This document shows, piece after piece, positions 4,097 to 38,311 of a stretch of 38,559 nucleotides of DNA. This DNA is from a virus. The notes under the pieces are model-generated. The model made no database searches. It had not been told where the DNA came from and saw only the letters and a program-made list of their open reading frames with translations. A program made the position numbers and the translations under genes. The first letter of the stretch is position 1. Each line of letters begins with the position of its first letter. The stretch spans positions 1-38,559 of IMG/VR virus record IMGVR_UViG_3300009425_000035. One strand, 5' to 3'.

Positions 4097-4294
4097 ATGA
4101 CAATAATTCAGTACTTTTCTCTTTATTTCCTACTTGGAATAATATGGTCAGGATGGATAGAATACTTTACAACCAAACATAAAATAGGAGGTCCTTGGAA
4201 TAATTTTGAAAGATTATACCAACTCGTAATGTGGCCAACAGCTTTCATTACTTTTATAATAACTTGGATAAATGAAGTATTTAAAAATGAATGA
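4097..4294 (+). CDS. Small two-helix membrane protein (65 aa)
   Basis: Two hydrophobic segments (about residues 4-22 and 42-60) are joined by a polar, Trp/Lys-rich loop. No signal cleavage site and no known family. It is tightly coupled to the flavoprotein gene, whose start lies within its last codons, so it could be a membrane partner of that enzyme (inference). Confidence 0.55.
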   Translation: MTIIQYFSLYFLLGIIWSGWIEYFTTKHKIGGPWNNFERLYQLVMWPTAFITFIITWINEVFKNE

Positions 4295-5003
4295 ATTAGG
4301 ATTACTAACAGACATTATTAAAGAGACTCATAACCAATGGAGATTTATATTTGAATCACCACTATACGATGAGATTAAATACACACCAGGACAACTAATC
4401 ACCCTTACAATTAGAGAACCAGGAGCAATGACTCAATTTACAAGAAGTTATTCTATAGCTTCATGGCCTGACGGTTCTAATACTTTTGAACTTATTATTA
4501 CTAACTTAGAAGGAGGAAGGATGTGCGATTATCTTTTCAACAAAGCTAAGATAGGAGATGAAGTAGAGTATAGAGGACCGATGGGAGTATTTACTCTTCC
4601 GGAAAAGATAGATAGAGACATATACTTTGTATGTACTGGATCAGGTATTAGCCCTTTTAGGTCAATGATCAATTGGATAACTAAGAATAATATAAAGACT
4701 AAGAAGATTAAACTTATCTTTGGCACTAGAGTAAAAGAAGATACTTTATATTATGAAGAACTCAGACAATTAGAGAAAGACAATGCTAATTTTGAATACT
4801 TACCAGTATTATCTAGAGAAGAAGTAGATGGATACGATCATGGATATGTTCATGATGTCTACTTAAAACTCATAGAAGGAAGAGAAGATAAGCCTTTATT
4901 TTACCTATGTGGCTGGAATATAATGATAGAAGAAGCTAGATACTGGTTGGACACTAATGGGTATAAGATGAAAGAAGATATTAGAGTTGAGATATTTGGA
5001 TAA
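4287..5003 (+). CDS. Ferredoxin-NADP+ reductase-like flavoprotein
   Basis: A 238-aa FAD/NAD(P)H oxidoreductase of the ferredoxin-NADP reductase superfamily. The FAD-binding motif is R53-S-Y-S-I-A-S. A GGRMCDYLF helix follows, then the pyrophosphate and nicotinamide motif CTGSGISPFR (116-125), and the NAD(P)-domain C-terminal motif Y-L-C-G-W (206-210). There are no cysteine ligands for an iron-sulphur cluster, so the electron partner must be separate. I prefer ATG 4287 (8-nt overlap with the upstream stop) over ATG 4272. A phage copy is unusual. The window also encodes 2OG-Fe(II) oxygenase-fold proteins and a SufT-like iron-sulphur factor, so a redox role for phage-encoded chemistry is possible but unproven. 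It is the last gene before a strong terminator. Confidence 0.85.
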   Translation: MNELGLLTDIIKETHNQWRFIFESPLYDEIKYTPGQLITLTIREPGAMTQFTRSYSIASWPDGSNTFELIITNLEGGRMCDYLFNKAKIGDEVEYRGPMGVFTLPEKIDRDIYFVCTGSGISPFRSMINWITKNNIKTKKIKLIFGTRVKEDTLYYEELRQLEKDNANFEYLPVLSREEVDGYDHGYVHDVYLKLIEGREDKPLFYLCGWNIMIEEARYWLDTNGYKMKEDIRVEIFG

Positions 5004-23638: not shown

Positions 23639-24049
23639 ATGGCATTTGAAGTAAAAAGAATTAATCCATTAGATAGACAGCCTCGCAAGGCAGTAGGCGT
23701 CTCTTTGCCCTTTACCGGCCAAGCAGTATTTAATTCTACATATACTACAAAAGATGCAATTAAGAATAATATAATTAACTTCTTCTTAACCAGCAAGGGT
23801 GAAAGATTTTTTAATCCTAACTTTGGAACAGGTTTAAGAAGGTTGTTATTTGATAACCTAACAGAAGAGAAAATAGCACAAATAGACTCAGAAGTAAGAT
23901 CATCTTTACAACTATATTTTCCTGCAGTAATACCAACAAGGATAGTAACATCTGCTAACCCTGATAATAATGCAGTAAATTTTTCTATGGCATACCAGAT
24001 AAGCGAAACAGGTATAGAAGACTTTCTGAATATAAATTTTGAACAATAA
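23639..24049 (+). CDS. Baseplate wedge protein, T4 gp25-like
   Basis: A 136-aa protein with the gp25/GpW-lysozyme-fold features of baseplate wedges. FTGQAVFNSTYTTKDAIKNNIINFFLTSKGERFFNPNFGTGLRRLLFD (about 24-73) contains the conserved N-x-x-x-x-x-x-x-G-E-R-x-x-x-P-x-F-G-x-x-L/R-R motif. The C-terminal half carries the usual strand pair. gp25 sits in the inner wedge and starts sheath assembly. The TAATG joint with the next gene (gp6-like) keeps the T4-like wedge gene order. Confidence 0.88.
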   Translation: MAFEVKRINPLDRQPRKAVGVSLPFTGQAVFNSTYTTKDAIKNNIINFFLTSKGERFFNPNFGTGLRRLLFDNLTEEKIAQIDSEVRSSLQLYFPAVIPTRIVTSANPDNNAVNFSMAYQISETGIEDFLNINFEQ

Positions 24050-25206
24050 TGGCTGAACAAAAAGACATAAAATACGTTAATAGGAATTTCGCTGATTTTA
24101 AAAATCAATTAGTAGAGTTTGCAAAAAACTATTTTCCTGATTCATACAACGACTTCTCACCGACATCACCTGGTATGATGTTTATAGAAATGGCTTCATA
24201 TGTAGGAGATGTATTATCTTTTTATCAAGATATACAGTTACAAGAGACATTTGTACAACATGCTAAGAACCCAGAAAATTTATACTCCTTAGCTTATATG
24301 TTAGGATATAGACCTAAAGTGACTACAGTATCAGAAGTAGAAATAGAAATATCCCAACAAGTAGCATCACTAGGATCGACATATAATTACCAACCGAACT
24401 ATAACCAAGCTATATTAGTTAACGAAGACGCTCAACTTACAGCCCAGACATCAGGAGTTCCACAGTTTATTATAGACAGACAAGTAGATTTTTCTTATTC
24501 AAGCTCATATGATCCAACAGACGTAACAGTTCACTCAATTGAATCAGGTCATCCAGCTCAATATACACTAAAGAAAAAAGCTAAAGCATTCTCAGGAGAA
24601 GTATTTACTACTACAATTCCAATAGGAAATGCAGAAAAGTTCCAAACAGTAGCAATTGAAGATACTGACATAGTTGGTATAATTTCTGTTACAGATGGAG
24701 ATGGATACAGTTGGACAGAAGTACCTTACTTAGGTCAAGAAACAGTATTTGATGATGAAGCTAACACAGATTCAGATAGCGATAGAGTATCTCATAAGAT
24801 GGTACTTAAAAAAGTTCCAAGAAGATATGTAACAAGATTCAATGCAAATGGAGATCTAAACTTACAGTTTGGATCAGGCGTAAGCCCTTCAGAAGATAAC
24901 ATAATTACTCCAAACCCTGCTAACGTAGGTGTAGGTAATGCAGAAGGAATAAGTAGATTAGATCATTCATATGATCCATCAAACTTCTTATTTACTAGAA
25001 CGTATGGTTTAGCTCCATCTAATACTACCCTTACTATAAAGTATATTAGAGGAGGAGGCATAGTATCTAATGTACCAGCAAATACAATCACAGGAACCAC
25101 TGCAGTAACTACAAGTGCTACAGATGATACCTATTTAAATACTTTAGCATTCACTAACCCACTTCCAGAACAGGAGGTAAGGATGGAGATTCCACAGAAG
25201 AGATAA
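24049..25206 (+). CDS. Baseplate wedge protein, T4 gp6-like (baseplate J), N-terminal part
   Basis: 385 codons covering the first two-thirds of a gp6-like wedge protein. DFKNQLVEFAKNYFPDSYNDF and SPGMMFIEMASYVGDVLSFY at the N-terminus are typical for marine T4-like phages. Conserved sequence continues to FTNPLP (codons about 370-375), and then the frame leaves it for EQEVRMEIPQKR and stops. In another frame the expected T-G-G-K-D-G-D-S-T-E-E-I-R-Q-N continues without a break, from about 25170 into the next listed gene. One base appears missing near 25168. In the family this is a single protein. Treat this and 25218-25871 as one broken or misread gene unless frameshifting is shown. Confidence 0.85.
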   Translation: MAEQKDIKYVNRNFADFKNQLVEFAKNYFPDSYNDFSPTSPGMMFIEMASYVGDVLSFYQDIQLQETFVQHAKNPENLYSLAYMLGYRPKVTTVSEVEIEISQQVASLGSTYNYQPNYNQAILVNEDAQLTAQTSGVPQFIIDRQVDFSYSSSYDPTDVTVHSIESGHPAQYTLKKKAKAFSGEVFTTTIPIGNAEKFQTVAIEDTDIVGIISVTDGDGYSWTEVPYLGQETVFDDEANTDSDSDRVSHKMVLKKVPRRYVTRFNANGDLNLQFGSGVSPSEDNIITPNPANVGVGNAEGISRLDHSYDPSNFLFTRTYGLAPSNTTLTIKYIRGGGIVSNVPANTITGTTAVTTSATDDTYLNTLAFTNPLPEQEVRMEIPQKR

Positions 25207-27367: not shown

Positions 27368-30300
27368 ATGGCTAAAATAGAATATAATGTAGTTTCACTA
27401 TCCCCTGAACAAGTAACAGGTATAGACTCTTATAGTGCTAAAGATGTAGCACTAGTAAGAGACTTTCAAGTTTCTAATACTTTCAAAACAGGAGTAAATA
27501 ATCTTGAACTACATGCATACGACTTAACAGGAACTCTACTAAAGTCTTCTTATAATTACAAAGGTCATTCTTTTCTTGCTACAGCAGCAGGAGCAGGTAA
27601 ATCAGGAGAGTCCACAATAGAATTAGACCCTGCAAAAGATGCAATAGAATTAGGATATAATTCTGGTGATATTAGGTTTGTTTATAACTTTGTAAATAAT
27701 TTATACAGTAAGAGATCTAATCAACCACAGTTCTTTATAGATACTATCTCTAAAGATAGAATGGAGTTAAGAATACTATCTGCTCAATTAACAGATAATT
27801 TTATTCGTAAGACAACAGCTAATATAGAAGCTGCAATTAATAGCGATTCTTATTTTAGTGACTTTAGATTAAACTTTTTAGAAAATAAATTAGTAATAGC
27901 GGTAAATATAAGCACTCAACAGTACAAAAAACAGACTGCCGTACTAATAAGATTATACGAACCACTACCCAGAACAATAAAACCTAAAGATATATTAACA
28001 GTAGTTGATATTATCAGTGATAGCCAGGCGTTTGAAGTAACAGCCAATACAATAGCAGATCCAGAAGTATTTTCAAAAATAGCAGGCCCAAACTGGGATG
28101 TAAATGTAGATGAAACACAAGGCACACCAAGTCCTTTCTATAGCTTTAACGAATTATTTAGCTACCCAGTAAGTAGTTCCTACTACGAACTAATGTCTCT
28201 GTCTAGTGAAAGCGGCTCAGCAATAAGTATAGACCATACAGACTTTTCTAACTTTGTACACTTTGGTTCAGCTGAAGAAAGATTAAGAAACTTTAAATAT
28301 AAATTACAATTAGTAGAAGGGTATAGTAGTAGTATAGCTACTGTAAAAGCAACCGGTAATAATAATACAGATATAACAGGTAGTATAGCATATTACGAAG
28401 GTTTAATTACTGGAGTAGTTGATAATTTTGATCACTACGATAGATTTCTTTATTATGAAAGCGGCAGCTATGCTTGGCCAAAAGCAAATTCATCTCGACC
28501 CTATACACTGGTATCGAGTAGTGAGGCTACAACCTCTACATGGTTTACAGATAATATACAATCTTCTTCCAACTTCGATACTAGTAACTTTAATACATTA
28601 ACGAATGCAATACCGGCCTTTATAAGAGAAGATGCAGACAATAACGAAGCACTAACCTTTGTGTATATGCTCGGTCAACACTTCGATAATATATGGATAT
28701 ATCAAAAAGCTTTGTCTGATAAATACGATGGAGATAATAGACTACATTATGGTATATCAAGAGATTTAGTAGGAGATGCTTTAAAGAGCTTCGGAGTTAA
28801 ACTATACTCCAGCAACGAATCATTAGAGAATTTATTCTCATATTTCACTGGTCAAGAATACCAATCAGGAAGTACAAATGCTATAGCAACTCATGTAACA
28901 GCATCATCCGGACCTCAGGCGTACTTACAACCAATGCCTAAACAGTCCTACATACAGGAAGTTTATAAGAGATTATACCACAACCTACCTTATTTAACTA
29001 AGACCAAAGGTACCGAAAGAGGTTTAAGAGCACTAATAAACTGTTATGGAGTACCATCCGATATTTTATCAATAAAAATAGACGGTAATTTAGATAGAGA
29101 ATCTAATGTATTCCTATCACCAGAAGAATTTATAACTGGTTCAGTAACTCAGGTAACTAGCTCTCTAGATAGAATTACAGTTGATGTTACTGGGTCCCTA
29201 GCAGAAGGATCAGCTCTCTTATCTGATAGAACTATAAGAAGAAAGGTATATAAAAGAACAACAGGGCAGCATACTCTTGAAGTTGGCTTTTCACCTGCAG
29301 ACGCTATCAACGCACAAATATACCACTCAGCTTCAGCTGCAGGAGGTATTAATATTGACGATTATATCGGCGCACCAAGTGATGGAGACAGTACTAAATA
29401 TACAGGGCTAAGAAGTTTACTTGAAGACTACACTAAAGACAATAGTAGATATGACCTAAAAGACTTTGTATCTTTAATAAGGTTTTTTGACAATACATTA
29501 TTTAGATCCATAAAAGACTATATACCAGCCAGATCAAATGCATCTACCGGTATTATCATTAAACCAAACGTACTTGATAGAAGTAAAGCTAGACTAGTAT
29601 CAGGTTCCTTCGAACAAAGAGACTTTACAGGGTCTGTTTCAGTCGCTCAAATCTCAGGTTCATCAGGAGGAATTTTTGAAGTAGGCTCATTGTATAGTTT
29701 TGATAAAACCACCAGCTATAACGATTATGTACCAACCAAATCAGGATCAGCTTTACGAATAGTAGATGATGAGTCACCGACATTTAATGGTGAATTAAGC
29801 GGCTCTCTTATTGTAGCAGCACATCAAGACATAACAAGAGGTAATAAATTTAAAAAACAGTCTGGTAAAAATTTAATATTTGATATTAATATATTCGATA
29901 TGTCATTTGACTGCGACTTCGAAGTACGTTTATTTGTACCACCATCCGTTACACCGTCCGTTACACCAAGTGCAACACCTAGTGTATCTGTTACTCCGGT
30001 AGTTTCCCCAACACCAAGTGCAACACCTAGTGTATCTGTTACACCGAGTAGAACACCTAGTATATCAGTTACGCCTAGTAGAACACCATCCGTTACACCT
30101 TCAGTATCAGTTACACCTTCAGTTACGGTAACACCAAGTGTAACACCTTCAGTTACGGTAACACCTTCAGTATCAGTTACACCTTCAGTATCAGTCACAC
30201 CTTCAGTGTCAGTCACACCTTCAGTTACGGTAACACCAAGTAGAACACCTTCAGTTACGGTAACACCTAGCGTATCCACTACACCGGGAGTATCATCTAC

Positions 30301-31015
30301 ACCATCCGTATCAGTTACACCTTCAGTTACGGTAACACCTTCAGTGTCAGTTACACCTAGTGTATCTGTAACACCTTCAGTATCTGTTACACCAAGTTCA
30401 ACACCTAGTGTATCTGTTACACCTTCAGTTACGGTAACACCTTCAGTGTCAGTCACACCTTCAGTTACGGTAACACCAAGTAGAACACCTAGTGTATCTG
30501 TTACACCTAGTGTATCTGTTACACCTTCAGTTACGGTAACACCAAGTAGAACACCTTCAGTGTCCGTCACACCTTCAGTATCAGTTACACCTTCAGTGTC
30601 AGTTACGCCTAGTAGAACACCTAGCATATCAGTTACACCATCCGTATCAGTTACACCATCCGTATCAGTTACACCAAGTGCAACACCTTCAGTATCAGTT
30701 ACACCATCCGTATCAGTCACACCTTCAGTATCTGTGACACCATCAGTTACGGTAACACCATCTAAATCAGCTCTTGCTACTAGGTATACAATTACAGTAG
30801 GATGGCATACAGCCTCAGGAAATGATGCTTGTGCAGAACATGAAAACTCACCAGAAACCTGGTACTTTAGTCATTCCACCTTCAATGCAGCAACATCTGT
30901 ATGGAAAACAGCAACTGCAACATCGTATCCATCAGCAAGGTACTTTAGTAATGGAGCTAAACACAAATACTGGACTGGAACAGCATTTATTAACCCAGCA
31001 TTCTGTACTATATAA
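27368..31015 (+). CDS. Giant tail protein: tail-protein-I-like part, Pro/Ser/Thr/Val stalk, C-terminal domain (1215 aa)
   Basis: Residues 1-850 are globular. They include FVYMLGQHFDNIWIYQKAL, then Y-K-R-L-Y-H-N-L-P-Y-L-T-K-T-K-G-T-E-R-G-L-R-A-L-I-N-C-Y-G-V-P (about 537-570), the hallmark of P2 gpI-like/T4-type baseplate proteins that hold the fibres. Residues about 858-1132 are a continuous repeat built on the hexamer S-V-S-V-T-P and variants (S-R-T-P, S-A-T-P). The last 80 residues are a separate small domain with two Cys, one in the final FCTI. So the protein may attach to the baseplate, reach outward by a rigid stalk and end in a tip. The leftward 298-codon frame over the repeat is an artefact. 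Confidence 0.75.
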   Translation: MAKIEYNVVSLSPEQVTGIDSYSAKDVALVRDFQVSNTFKTGVNNLELHAYDLTGTLLKSSYNYKGHSFLATAAGAGKSGESTIELDPAKDAIELGYNSGDIRFVYNFVNNLYSKRSNQPQFFIDTISKDRMELRILSAQLTDNFIRKTTANIEAAINSDSYFSDFRLNFLENKLVIAVNISTQQYKKQTAVLIRLYEPLPRTIKPKDILTVVDIISDSQAFEVTANTIADPEVFSKIAGPNWDVNVDETQGTPSPFYSFNELFSYPVSSSYYELMSLSSESGSAISIDHTDFSNFVHFGSAEERLRNFKYKLQLVEGYSSSIATVKATGNNNTDITGSIAYYEGLITGVVDNFDHYDRFLYYESGSYAWPKANSSRPYTLVSSSEATTSTWFTDNIQSSSNFDTSNFNTLTNAIPAFIREDADNNEALTFVYMLGQHFDNIWIYQKALSDKYDGDNRLHYGISRDLVGDALKSFGVKLYSSNESLENLFSYFTGQEYQSGSTNAIATHVTASSGPQAYLQPMPKQSYIQEVYKRLYHNLPYLTKTKGTERGLRALINCYGVPSDILSIKIDGNLDRESNVFLSPEEFITGSVTQVTSSLDRITVDVTGSLAEGSALLSDRTIRRKVYKRTTGQHTLEVGFSPADAINAQIYHSASAAGGINIDDYIGAPSDGDSTKYTGLRSLLEDYTKDNSRYDLKDFVSLIRFFDNTLFRSIKDYIPARSNASTGIIIKPNVLDRSKARLVSGSFEQRDFTGSVSVAQISGSSGGIFEVGSLYSFDKTTSYNDYVPTKSGSALRIVDDESPTFNGELSGSLIVAAHQDITRGNKFKKQSGKNLIFDINIFDMSFDCDFEVRLFVPPSVTPSVTPSATPSVSVTPVVSPTPSATPSVSVTPSRTPSISVTPSRTPSVTPSVSVTPSVTVTPSVTPSVTVTPSVSVTPSVSVTPSVSVTPSVTVTPSRTPSVTVTPSVSTTPGVSSTPSVSVTPSVTVTPSVSVTPSVSVTPSVSVTPSSTPSVSVTPSVTVTPSVSVTPSVTVTPSRTPSVSVTPSVSVTPSVTVTPSRTPSVSVTPSVSVTPSVSVTPSRTPSISVTPSVSVTPSVSVTPSATPSVSVTPSVSVTPSVSVTPSVTVTPSKSALATRYTITVGWHTASGNDACAEHENSPETWYFSHSTFNAATSVWKTATATSYPSARYFSNGAKHKYWTGTAFINPAFCTI
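29939..30763 (+). repeat. Coding repeat array, 18-bp unit (S-V-S-V-T-P), copy 1
   Basis: About 275 codons of short-period repeats. The unit is mostly ACACC(T/A)(TC/AG)(A/T/C)GTATC(A/T)GTT in several synonymous versions (ACACCTTCAGTATCAGTT, ACACCATCCGTATCAGTT, ACACCTAGTGTATCTGTT) interspersed with AGTAGAACACC spacers. The mix suggests growth by unequal recombination of cassettes. Confidence 0.9.
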
Positions 31016-31077: not shown

Positions 31078-32820
31078 ATGGGATTTTTAGGATATAAATA
31101 TCAAGTAGTAGGTTGGAAGAATACACCGACAGGTAGTACTCAAGGAGCTATTGCAGATGCCGGCCCATTCTATGTATATGCTAATACAGAAATAGCAGCT
31201 AATAAAATAATAGGTACAAACGCCAATGCAGAAGAGTTTGGAGGCTGGGACTATACAGCTTCAGCTATTGGTCAATACGCAGACATAGTAGATGAGTATA
31301 CAGCAGCTTCTCTTATGACAGGCAGTGTAACTCTCTCAGGTACTGTTTATAAAAACGTATTAGGTAAAGATGATTTAAATAATGGAGTTACCTTAACAAC
31401 AGGTGAAGGAGTTAATAGTTTTATATTTAGAAGTGTTACTGAATGTACAAATGACTTTGCATTCGTACCCCCAACACCTTCAGCTACGGTAACACCTAGT
31501 GCAACACCTAGTGTATCTGTAACACCTTCAGTGTCAGTTACGCCAAGTAGAACACCAAGTACATCCGTAACACCTAGTGTATCATCCACACCAGGAAATT
31601 CACCTACACCATCAGTGTCAGTTACGCCAAGTGTAACACCATCATTATCATCCACACCAGGAGCTTCAGTTACACCAAGTAGAACACCAAGTACATCCGT
31701 AACACCATCCGTATCAGTCACACCATCAGTGTCAGTTACGCCTAGTAGAACACCTTCAGTTACGGTAACACCTTCAGTATCAGCTACACCAGGAAATTCA
31801 GTTACACCATCCGTATCTGTTACACCATCCGTATCAGTTACACCTTCAGTATCAGTTACACCTTCAGTATCTGTTACACCTTCAGTTACGGTAACACCAA
31901 GTAGAACACCTTCAGTGTCAGTCACACCTAGTGTATCCGTTACACCATCCGTATCAGTTACACCAAGTAGAACACCATCCGTATCAGTTACACCTTCAGT
32001 ATCCGTTACACCATCAGTGTCAGTTACACCATCCGTATCTATTACACCAAGTGTAACACCAAGTAAGTCTATAACACCATCTACATCAGCATTGAACCTA
32101 ACACTGGTTAAACTGTTCCCACCAGGAGCCTCCCTAGTCTCTGCTTGTAGCCCTGTCGGAAGTCTTGTAAACCACTGGCATGACGGATCTGGACAACCAT
32201 CACCTGGAGATAGAATTTATAATAATAGTACAGGAACAGTAACAACCGCTGGTGGATACTACCAAAATGGAGCATCTGGATTAGGCGGGTATAATGACTT
32301 AGTAACACTAAACAGTAGTGGTTATGTAACCTCAATTCAAAACTGCGCAGATAATTGTGTTATAGAAGGAACATCAATATCTATATCTATATCAGAAACA
32401 ACACCAGTGCAGAACTTAGAAATAGGGAACACAGTCTATTCTAAACATATTGAAACATTAGTAGACTCAGATGATCCTGTAACACTTACACAGTGGCATA
32501 GTAGTAATATAGACGGTAATCCTTCTACAGCAACAGTAACAAATAATCCATCAACTATTAGTCCTTTTGTTTGGAACTTCAATAATGGATTAATAAAAAC
32601 TACAGCAGGACACTTACACATAGTAAAAAGAGGTGTTGAATGGTTAATACAAAAAGCAACTAATGTACAAATAGGAGACTACTTTGAGAACATTAATGGT
32701 GACTTAGTAGAAATTACTTCTATAACACAAGAAGAATATAACGGAAACGTGTATAAATTAAATGTAGAAGATGATGATGTTTATTACGCCAACGGAATAC
32801 TAACACACAACATAAAATAA
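31078..32820 (+). CDS. Stalk protein with C-terminal Hint (intein/hedgehog-type) autoprocessing domain
   Basis: 580 aa in four parts. Residues 1-130 are a globular N-terminal domain. Residues 131-336 are the same Pro/Ser/Thr/Val repeat as in the preceding gene. Residues 337-426 are a Gly/Asn-rich small domain. Residues 427-580 are a complete Hint domain. Hint signs: C427 in C-V-I-E-G-T followed by V-Q-N-L-E-I-G-N-T-V (block A); T509-A-G-H512 (block B, T-x-x-H); W-L-I-Q-K-A with V-Q-I-G-D; and the closing V-Y-K-L-N-V-E-D-D-D-V-Y-Y-A-N-G-I-L-T-H577-N578. After H-N only Ile-Lys follow, so there is no C-extein and no nucleophile at +1. N-terminal cleavage at C427, as in hedgehog or BIL-type domains, is the plausible activity; splicing is not. 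Size (about 150 aa) leaves no room for a homing endonuclease. Confidence 0.85.
   Translation: MGFLGYKYQVVGWKNTPTGSTQGAIADAGPFYVYANTEIAANKIIGTNANAEEFGGWDYTASAIGQYADIVDEYTAASLMTGSVTLSGTVYKNVLGKDDLNNGVTLTTGEGVNSFIFRSVTECTNDFAFVPPTPSATVTPSATPSVSVTPSVSVTPSRTPSTSVTPSVSSTPGNSPTPSVSVTPSVTPSLSSTPGASVTPSRTPSTSVTPSVSVTPSVSVTPSRTPSVTVTPSVSATPGNSVTPSVSVTPSVSVTPSVSVTPSVSVTPSVTVTPSRTPSVSVTPSVSVTPSVSVTPSRTPSVSVTPSVSVTPSVSVTPSVSITPSVTPSKSITPSTSALNLTLVKLFPPGASLVSACSPVGSLVNHWHDGSGQPSPGDRIYNNSTGTVTTAGGYYQNGASGLGGYNDLVTLNSSGYVTSIQNCADNCVIEGTSISISISETTPVQNLEIGNTVYSKHIETLVDSDDPVTLTQWHSSNIDGNPSTATVTNNPSTISPFVWNFNNGLIKTTAGHLHIVKRGVEWLIQKATNVQIGDYFENINGDLVEITSITQEEYNGNVYKLNVEDDDVYYANGILTHNIK
31468..32084 (+). repeat. 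Coding repeat array, 18-bp unit (S-V-S-V-T-P), copy 2
   Basis: About 205 codons of the same units and the same synonymous variants as 29939-30763, including the AGTAGAACACC spacers and the distinctive T-P-G-N-S / T-P-G-A-S interruptions. Two near-identical arrays about 0.7 kb apart in the same direction can recombine, which would delete or fuse parts of the two genes. Confidence 0.9.
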
Positions 32821-37258: not shown

Positions 37259-38311
37259 ATGGCATCAACTCGCTCAAAATTAACTGGGTCACTTTATATA
37301 ACAGATGACTTAGAAATAGTAGGATCAATAACAGCCTCTCAAGGTTTCCAAGGTCTTACTGATGTATTTTCAGCATCGGCACAAGTCGATCATGATAGTA
37401 CAACTAATTTTGTAGCAGCCGAACATATCAGTCACACCGGTGTAGCGATAACTGGGACTGGTTTATTAACCGGTGGAGGTAATATAGATACTTCTAGAGC
37501 AATAACTATTGACACATCAACAGCTGATTGGACAACTGCTATAGTAAATCAACTACCAACAGGACTGGTTTCATCATCTACACAGATGGATACTTTATTT
37601 AATTTAGATGGAGTAGTATCTTCATCAGCACAAATAAATGCTTTAGATATTACCGAAGTCGGAACAATATCAAGTGGAGTTTGGAGCGGTACTGCACTAG
37701 TTGCAGGAAAGGTCCCAGCTATTACTGCCCTCACGGGATATACAGCTGGAGCTTATGCAAACGCTAGTTCTGTTGGAGGTTCAAGCATTGCAACTGTTGG
37801 AACAATAGGAACAGGAGCATGGCAAGGCACTATTATAGCATCAGCATACTTAGACTCAGATACAGCTCACCTAACTACAGCTCAGACATTTACAGGAGAG
37901 AAAAAATTTGCTACTGACGTTACTGTATCAGGTAGTTTAATAATATCTTCTTCAATAGGAGATAGCCCTTACGGTATGTTAGTTAAAGGAGCAATATCAG
38001 TATCAGGAGATGTTATAGCATACCAGTCTTCAGATAGAAACTTAAAAGATAATATAGTACCAATTGAATCACCATTAGAGAAACTATCTCAAATCAATGG
38101 AGTAGCTTTTGATTGGAATAATAAACAAGACCTTTACACAGGTCGAGATATAGGAGTAATAGCTCAAGAAATTGAGAAAGTATTACCCGAAATTGTACAG
38201 ACTCGAGAATCAGGCTATAAAGCAGTACGTTACGATAAAATAGTCGCGTTATTAATTGAAGCAATTAAAGAGCAGCAGTTACAGATAGATGAGTTAAAAA
38301 CTCGTTTATAG
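37259..38311 (+). CDS. Tail fibre with C-terminal peptidase S74 intramolecular chaperone
   Basis: 350 aa. Residues 1-250 are repetitive fibre (LTGSLYITDDLEIVGSITA.., SSSTQMD, TGTGLLTGGGNIDTSRAITID). From residue about 256 the peptidase S74 domain follows: S257-S258-D-R-N-L-K263 supplies the catalytic Ser-Lys dyad with the usual five-residue spacing (S258/K263). G-V-A-F-D-W, D-I-G-V-I-A-Q-E-I-E-K-V-L-P-E-I-V and Y-D-K-I-V-A-L-L-I-E-A-I-K-E-Q are standard. S74 domains trimerise the fibre and then cut themselves off before the Ser. The receptor-binding part would lie just before it. Host range cannot be read here. Confidence 0.92.
   Translation: MASTRSKLTGSLYITDDLEIVGSITASQGFQGLTDVFSASAQVDHDSTTNFVAAEHISHTGVAITGTGLLTGGGNIDTSRAITIDTSTADWTTAIVNQLPTGLVSSSTQMDTLFNLDGVVSSSAQINALDITEVGTISSGVWSGTALVAGKVPAITALTGYTAGAYANASSVGGSSIATVGTIGTGAWQGTIIASAYLDSDTAHLTTAQTFTGEKKFATDVTVSGSLIISSSIGDSPYGMLVKGAISVSGDVIAYQSSDRNLKDNIVPIESPLEKLSQINGVAFDWNNKQDLYTGRDIGVIAQEIEKVLPEIVQTRESGYKAVRYDKIVALLIEAIKEQQLQIDELKTRL

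Follow-up and report, generated by a model that had tools for sequence, protein, structure and literature searches.

A lysine-ended Hint domain at the C-terminus of a phage stalk protein, a candidate self-removing maturation domain

The stalk protein, or adhesin, encoded at positions 31078-32820 (+) of a virus record of 38,559 bases (the whole of this stretch is called the window) ends in a Hint domain resembling the A-type BILs. Judged from its motifs and from published Hint chemistry, this domain is, on balance, probably a C-terminal maturation domain that removes itself from the stalk protein. BIL chemistry is known; its purpose on phage tail proteins is the question raised by this gene.

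The translation of 580 aa was divided into four parts, all on the plus strand. The N-terminal domain (residues 1-131; 31078-31470), which had the lowest dN of the three parts compared between relatives and gave no PHROG match at E 0.01 over residues 1-134, is presumed to be the virion anchor. It is followed by a stalk of PSVSVTPS-type repeats rich in S, V, T and P (residues 132-337; 31471-32088), a region matched by phrog_15511 (unknown function), by a tip domain of 89 residues (338-426; 32089-32355), and by the Hint domain of 152 residues (427-578; 32356-32811), which was placed by profiles and predicted fold. The following ORF begins at the final base of the gene (32820), and the gene order is common to the window and its close relatives. 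Since ORF 24049-25206 upstream matches baseplate-wedge PHROGs and ORF 37259-38311 downstream ends in Peptidase_S74, the Hint-bearing stalk protein, presumably part of the virion, probably serves in the tail or in a fibre. The Peptidase_S74 part is assumed, from the family name, to be a chaperone domain. The same phage carries a gene for an FAD/NAD-binding oxidoreductase (window 4272-5003).

A preliminary description had assigned the last 150 residues to a Hint domain. The motifs named there were found in their places, namely C427 (in CVIEGT; 32356-32358) as block A nucleophile, T509-A-G-H512 (32602-32613) as block B, H577-N578 (32806-32811) as the terminal His-Asn of block G, and I579-K580 (32812-32817) as the entire C-terminal flank, with Lys at +2 and the stop codon behind it; the domain itself is present, its precise extent being 152 residues. 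Of the checks proposed for this assignment, the HMM search gave a divided answer. TIGR01443 (intein_Cterm) was passed with a score of 18.2 against a cut-off of 15.6, but with the domain alone Pfam Intein_splicing (E 2.6e-5; 24.5 against a curated cut-off of 35.8 bits) and PT-HINT (PF07591; 17.8 against 27.7 bits) stayed below, and none of the Pfam models searched with the Hint domain exceeded its curated threshold. Structure prediction bore the assignment out: an AlphaFold model built from an alignment of 30 sequences gave a confident Hint fold with a mean pLDDT of 92.

Structural comparison of this model by Foldseek placed chains of Tetrahymena BIL2 at ranks 1-4 and the C. thermocellum BIL 2LWY, which we take to be an A-type BIL, at rank 5. 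Alignment with VIA-align gave Z scores of 20.2 and 19.2 for BIL2, 18.8 for the gp41-1 intein, 18.6 for 2LWY and 17.9 for hedgehog. A profile of five Hints ranked 2LWY first (E 2.3e-6) and BIL2 (E 0.017) behind two inteins; with 14 Hints, BIL2 (1.9e-7) and 2LWY (3e-7) led, and inteins followed at 3.6e-4 or worse. A chance match of motifs was rejected on the TIGR01443 score, the model confidence, the structural alignment and the 14-Hint profile. In the predicted model, a Hint fold at residues 427-578 is confirmed, and the preference for BIL is slight in the structural comparison and more distinct in the profiles.

The features of an A-type BIL that sequence and predicted structure can show were found, namely a Hint fold, C427/T509/H512, H577-N578 and, as had been proposed, no C-extein nucleophile, since +1 is Ile. 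A-type BILs sit in variable, non-conserved proteins according to the available part of PMC5874633; the carriers of the present Hints are varied, and in two relatives (L015, L016) the place of the gene is empty of any ORF of at least 120 aa. A Class 1 intein would carry Cys, Ser or Thr at +1 and a C-extein, and in the window Ile, one further residue and the stop follow. A splicing intein was rejected on the missing +1 nucleophile. It is scarcely credible that a true homing intein once sat at the end of the gene and left this domain as a relic. The superfamily is the same, and intein-like Hints with HNC occur in a Vibrio phage (L037) and in a Nitrospira MAG (L121, the single locus found in a scan of genome contigs); against such an origin stand the absence of a +1 Cys/Ser/Thr and of a C-extein, the length of 152 residues, which leaves no room for an endonuclease, and the presence of Hints at or near the C-terminus of several different carrier proteins.

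The hedgehog Hog domain (1AT0) shares the fold (Z 17.9), the Cys-1 at the domain start and the C-terminal position. It differs in its sterol-recognition region behind the Hint, which the window's protein does not have because it ends two residues past HN, and in the active-site Asp/His, taken as block F:4, where K560 stands by sequence alignment alone; HN is kept in the window. Sterol transfer of the hedgehog kind was rejected on the absent sterol region and the Lys at F:4, and the attachment of a lipid, which had been among the earlier suggestions, is for the same reasons unlikely. Pretoxin Hints (PT-HINT) have a toxin domain behind the Hint; this reading was rejected as well, the score lying below the cut-off and nothing following the Hint.

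Among known systems, 2LWY shares the Hint fold, the terminal HN and the lack of a +1 nucleophile (Z 18.6 over 132 residues); the window differs by its C-flank of two residues with a Lys and by its carrier, a phage stalk or adhesin. Tetrahymena BUBL1 BIL2 (6Y75, 6TMM) shares the fold (Z 20.2, rmsd 1.9 over 138 residues), and differs in having His aligned to F:4, where the window has Lys, and, by the available part of PMC8616854, in the ubiquitin-like domains on either side and in its activation by Zn. The FhaB adhesins of Mannheimia carry BIL regions at the C-termini of surface adhesins according to the available text of PMC3091684; FhaB is a two-partner-secreted bacterial adhesin with three such regions and is likened here by description only. 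Closest in setting are virion proteins of large phages (NCTB; Erwinia phages Y3, Alexandra and Yoloswag; Yersinia phage fHe-Yen9-02) with a C-terminal Hint and Cys-1/TxxH/HN. Their Hints differ from that of the window (25.9% identity for NCTB), with A, T or V at +1, no Lys at +1 or +2, and flanks of 7-10 residues. The wording 'putative phage tail protein, contains intein domain' is used both for the NCTB product and in the note on gp110 of Y3; phrog_38766 matches gp110 along its length, and uncultured phages have entries named 'Hint domain containing protein' in BFVD. Hint domains on phage tail proteins are therefore of a kind already recorded (NCTB, Y3, phrog_38766, BFVD), and as regards the domain the preliminary description overstated its case in calling such a tail protein unusual. 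Two features seem new, a subfamily of stalk-adhesin Hints that ends in lysine and has hardly any C-flank, and the Hint-less tips of neighbouring proteins. The literature searched, as far as its text was available, described no case in which the C-terminal Hint of a phage tail protein had been tested.

Conservation was counted in the best 80 of 178 relatives from a scan with alignment A3. The 66 unique Hint matches were reduced to 62 distinct Hints by leaving out L055:6630-7550, which looked unrelated, fragments in L012 and L032, and the Hint-like protein BN7874_135 of phage NCTB (L017:660-1142), in which no TxxH was seen. Among the 62 are the type found in the window, six from phage records with annotation and the intein of the Vibrio phage (L037); identity to the window goes down to 26-30% among the matches listed. 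Position 1, which was absent from every scan pattern used, is C in 58, S in three and a TGA stop in one of the 62 among the matches listed, that is, a nucleophile in 61. The TGA (L062, codon before 3998) points to a damaged gene or to a different genetic code. Block B:7 is T (52) or S (10) and B:10 is H in all 62 among the matches listed. The terminal HN was likewise present in 62/62 of the listed Hints, a biased count because HN stood in one of the two patterns of the scan; all 16 loci of a separate scan, whose patterns lacked HN, also end in HN. A scan whose patterns contained neither C1 nor HN nor the tail gave 59 loci with 22 distinct freshwater Hints, which had C1 in 21/21 readable cases, HN in 22/22 and Lys at +1 in 22/22; as these form one close clade (74-92% alike in the query alignment), mostly on contigs from the A3 scan, they are no independent sample. 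Conservation of Cys/Ser-1, of TxxH or SxxH, and of HN speaks for active autoprocessing at C427, as had been presumed earlier.

Nucleotide divergence was compared between relatives for the three parts of the gene. For L011 against L013, dN and dS were 0.051 and 0.605 in the N-domain, 0.071 and 0.574 in the Hint, and 0.130 and 0.292 in the tip. The dN order N-domain < Hint < tip held in all pairs except the near-identical window and L009. The dN/dS ratio of the Hint ranged from 0.12 (L011 vs L013) to 0.42 (window vs L010), and lay at about 0.26 to 0.42 in the other diverged pairs, where dS was near or at saturation; for the window and L010, with saturated dS, the ratio of the tip (0.33) was not higher than that of the Hint (0.42). 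By the dN order and the ratios, the Hint is therefore maintained by purifying selection, and the tip diverges faster, as would be expected of a recognition tip.

On another reading the domain is unreactive and has been retained at the end of the stalk, where it would act as a folded cap, a chaperone or a module for binding. This is doubtful. It agrees with the non-catalytic-looking helpers at the ends of other tail proteins, such as Peptidase_S74 (37259-38311), and with the missing Asp at F:4 (D in 15/62 among the matches listed; K560 here by sequence alignment to block F); a structural module, however, should not need Cys/Ser-1, the block-B His and HN to be kept down to 26-30% identity.

For self-removal the following course is proposed. 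The Hint domain would fold at the C-terminus of the stalk protein, and T509 and H512 would activate the N426-C427 bond, the predicted site of the acyl shift and cut. An N-S acyl shift at C427 would give a thioester, which water or a small amine would in most cases resolve, and the Hint would leave. The virion would keep residues 1-426, ending just past the tip Cys C423; cyclisation of Asn578 may in addition free Ile-Lys. In inteins, Thr B:7 and His B:10 as well as F:4 affect the reaction at residue 1, according to the available text of PMC4031507. BILs lacking a +1 nucleophile yield mostly cleavage products in the accounts available from PMC4031507 and PMC7664689, and by the former the branched intermediate cannot form in them for want of this nucleophile. 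The three Ser-1 Hints among the matches listed still keep a nucleophile for the first step. The Lys at F:4 in place of Asp, the stop at position 1 of L062 and the lack of TxxH in BN7874_135 count against self-removal. Cleavage at the N-terminal side alone is further opposed by the conserved HN and Lys, neither of which it should need.

Self-removal is favoured by the proteins next to the Hint gene. Upstream in the window lies a 1215-aa stalk protein (27368-31015, +) without a Hint, whose C-terminal tip looks similar, partly by eye. It ends FCTI, and its counterparts in L009, L011 and L013 end FCTI, FCII and MCMI; these four stop two residues after the Cys, and that of L010 three after (CGFE). 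In 13 Hint-bearing tips the last conserved Cys stands 0-3 residues before position 1. In the window this is C423 (32344-32346), the last conserved tip residue and three residues before the predicted cut site; it is invariant, with A356-C357, in 13/13 aligned tips (alignment A6). Given this position of the last Cys in both kinds of tip, a cut before C427 would yield an end much like that of the Hint-less proteins, and the trimming of the stalk envisaged in the preliminary description gains from it. With no +1 nucleophile and with Hint-less tips ending alike, the Hint most likely removes itself.

The resemblance of the Hint-less to the Hint-bearing tips, which end at about the same place, was judged partly by eye and is weak in sequence. 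At E<=0.01 the tip profile matched short Hint-less C-termini of two contigs only (L010, 2.7e-4; L003, 6.5e-4); the upstream ORFs of the window, L009, L011 and L013, taken at full length, all stayed outside this limit. At the place of the upstream stalk protein, L025, L026, L028 and L029 have a protein that itself ends in a Hint (lacking its beginning in L025 and L029; the L026 contig ends before the second gene), and on the contig shared by L014 and L031 the upstream protein stops before any stalk. A scan of viral contigs with the tip gave four loci, all 99% identical. The tip model (pLDDT 87.6) had no match in the PDB (best E 2.4, best Z 2.6), which is no proof of a new fold. Neighbouring stalk genes with and without a Hint, whose tips end about alike, form a natural comparison by which a maturation cut and a covalent attachment can be tested directly.

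Covalent attachment had been suggested earlier as a joining 'by a thioester' to another molecule. The thioester would be an intermediate to the protein's own C427, and any stable adduct would be linked as an amide or ester. The version of attachment that remains live is transfer to an amine, because BIL2, the best structural match, is reported to do so in the available part of PMC8616854. An amine would attack the C427 thioester and the C-terminus of the tip would be joined covalently to an acceptor, possibly a Lys on an adjacent subunit, on a further virion protein or on the surface of the host. We consider such a transfer unlikely, if well worth keeping in view. BIL2 leads both in fold (Z 20.2, against 18.8 for the next non-BIL) and with the 14-sequence profile, and the available text of PMC8616854 describes its N-flank as released and conjugated to Lys side chains without ATP; a common fold, however, shows no function, and with the five-sequence profile BIL2 fell behind 2LWY and two inteins.

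The flank behind HN bears on the same point. Among the matches listed, Lys stands at +1 or +2 in 50 of the 62 distinct Hints, 26 of which end exactly at that Lys, compared with a background of 6.8% at +3 to +12. The share among the matches listed was 26/38 and 18/27 for representatives clustered at 80% and 60% identity, and 12/18 and 6/11 at 50% and 40%. The first residue after HN in the 62 listed Hints was K (23), I (10), D (5), R (4), V (4), F (3), A (3), T (3), Q (2), Y (2), L, N or C (1 each); Cys or Thr thus make up 4/62 of those listed, the C belonging to the intein-like Vibrio phage Hint (L037) and the T to Erwinia phages. In the freshwater clade 18/22 end exactly HNK. An intended control for Lys, PT-HINT in genomes of the phylum of L121, matched in 3/198, too few for use, and the enrichment therefore rests on the internal control at +3 to +12. 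Lys at +1 or +2 is frequent enough to require a reason; it may be an acceptor, a brake on Asn cyclisation, or structural.

Lys directly after HN in 50/62 of the listed Hints would suit amine transfer, but a flank of one or two residues was found in just 28/62 of them. A more specific proposal makes the lysine-tailed BIL a phage ligase, in which the tip as C427 thioester passes to an amine of a fibre subunit or of the host and forms a covalent bond, HN-(X)-Lys being part of the machinery; we hold this to be improbable. Were tips transferred to amines, phages would own a self-contained protein ligase on their adhesins.

The same lysine could become the acceptor after its own release. Cyclisation of Asn578 would free Ile-Lys, or Lys alone in relatives ending HNK, and its amine would attack the thioester so that the tip gains Lys or X-Lys, which amounts to A-type BIL splicing with a minimal flank. 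This course is very unlikely. It is in keeping with Lys at +1/+2 in 50/62 against 6.8% at +3 to +12 among the matches listed, with the HNK ends of 18/22 freshwater members, and with the splicing of A-type BILs by Asn cyclisation and amine attack described in the available part of PMC4031507; a fragment of one or two residues, however, would diffuse off after cleavage. We know of no reason for a phage to need an added Lys or X-Lys at the tip.

The residues before position 1 include a Gly in 28 of the 62 Hints and at least three Gly in the last five residues in 11, among the matches listed; a Cys within the last six was found in 32/62 of those listed. From its place in the sequence, a Cys just before position 1 could gate the Hint by redox state. 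Redox-trapped inteins exist. Many freshwater relatives (L126-L179) have a CxxC-like pair directly before the Hint nucleophile. The ten carriers scanned comprise collagen-like, laminin-G, BACON and PSVTPS-stalk proteins. In two BACON proteins (L074:2213-4705 and L086:2225-4702) the Hint is followed by Peptidase_S74, its match lying over the cut-off in L086 and below it in L074; these are possibly two self-cutting modules in tandem.
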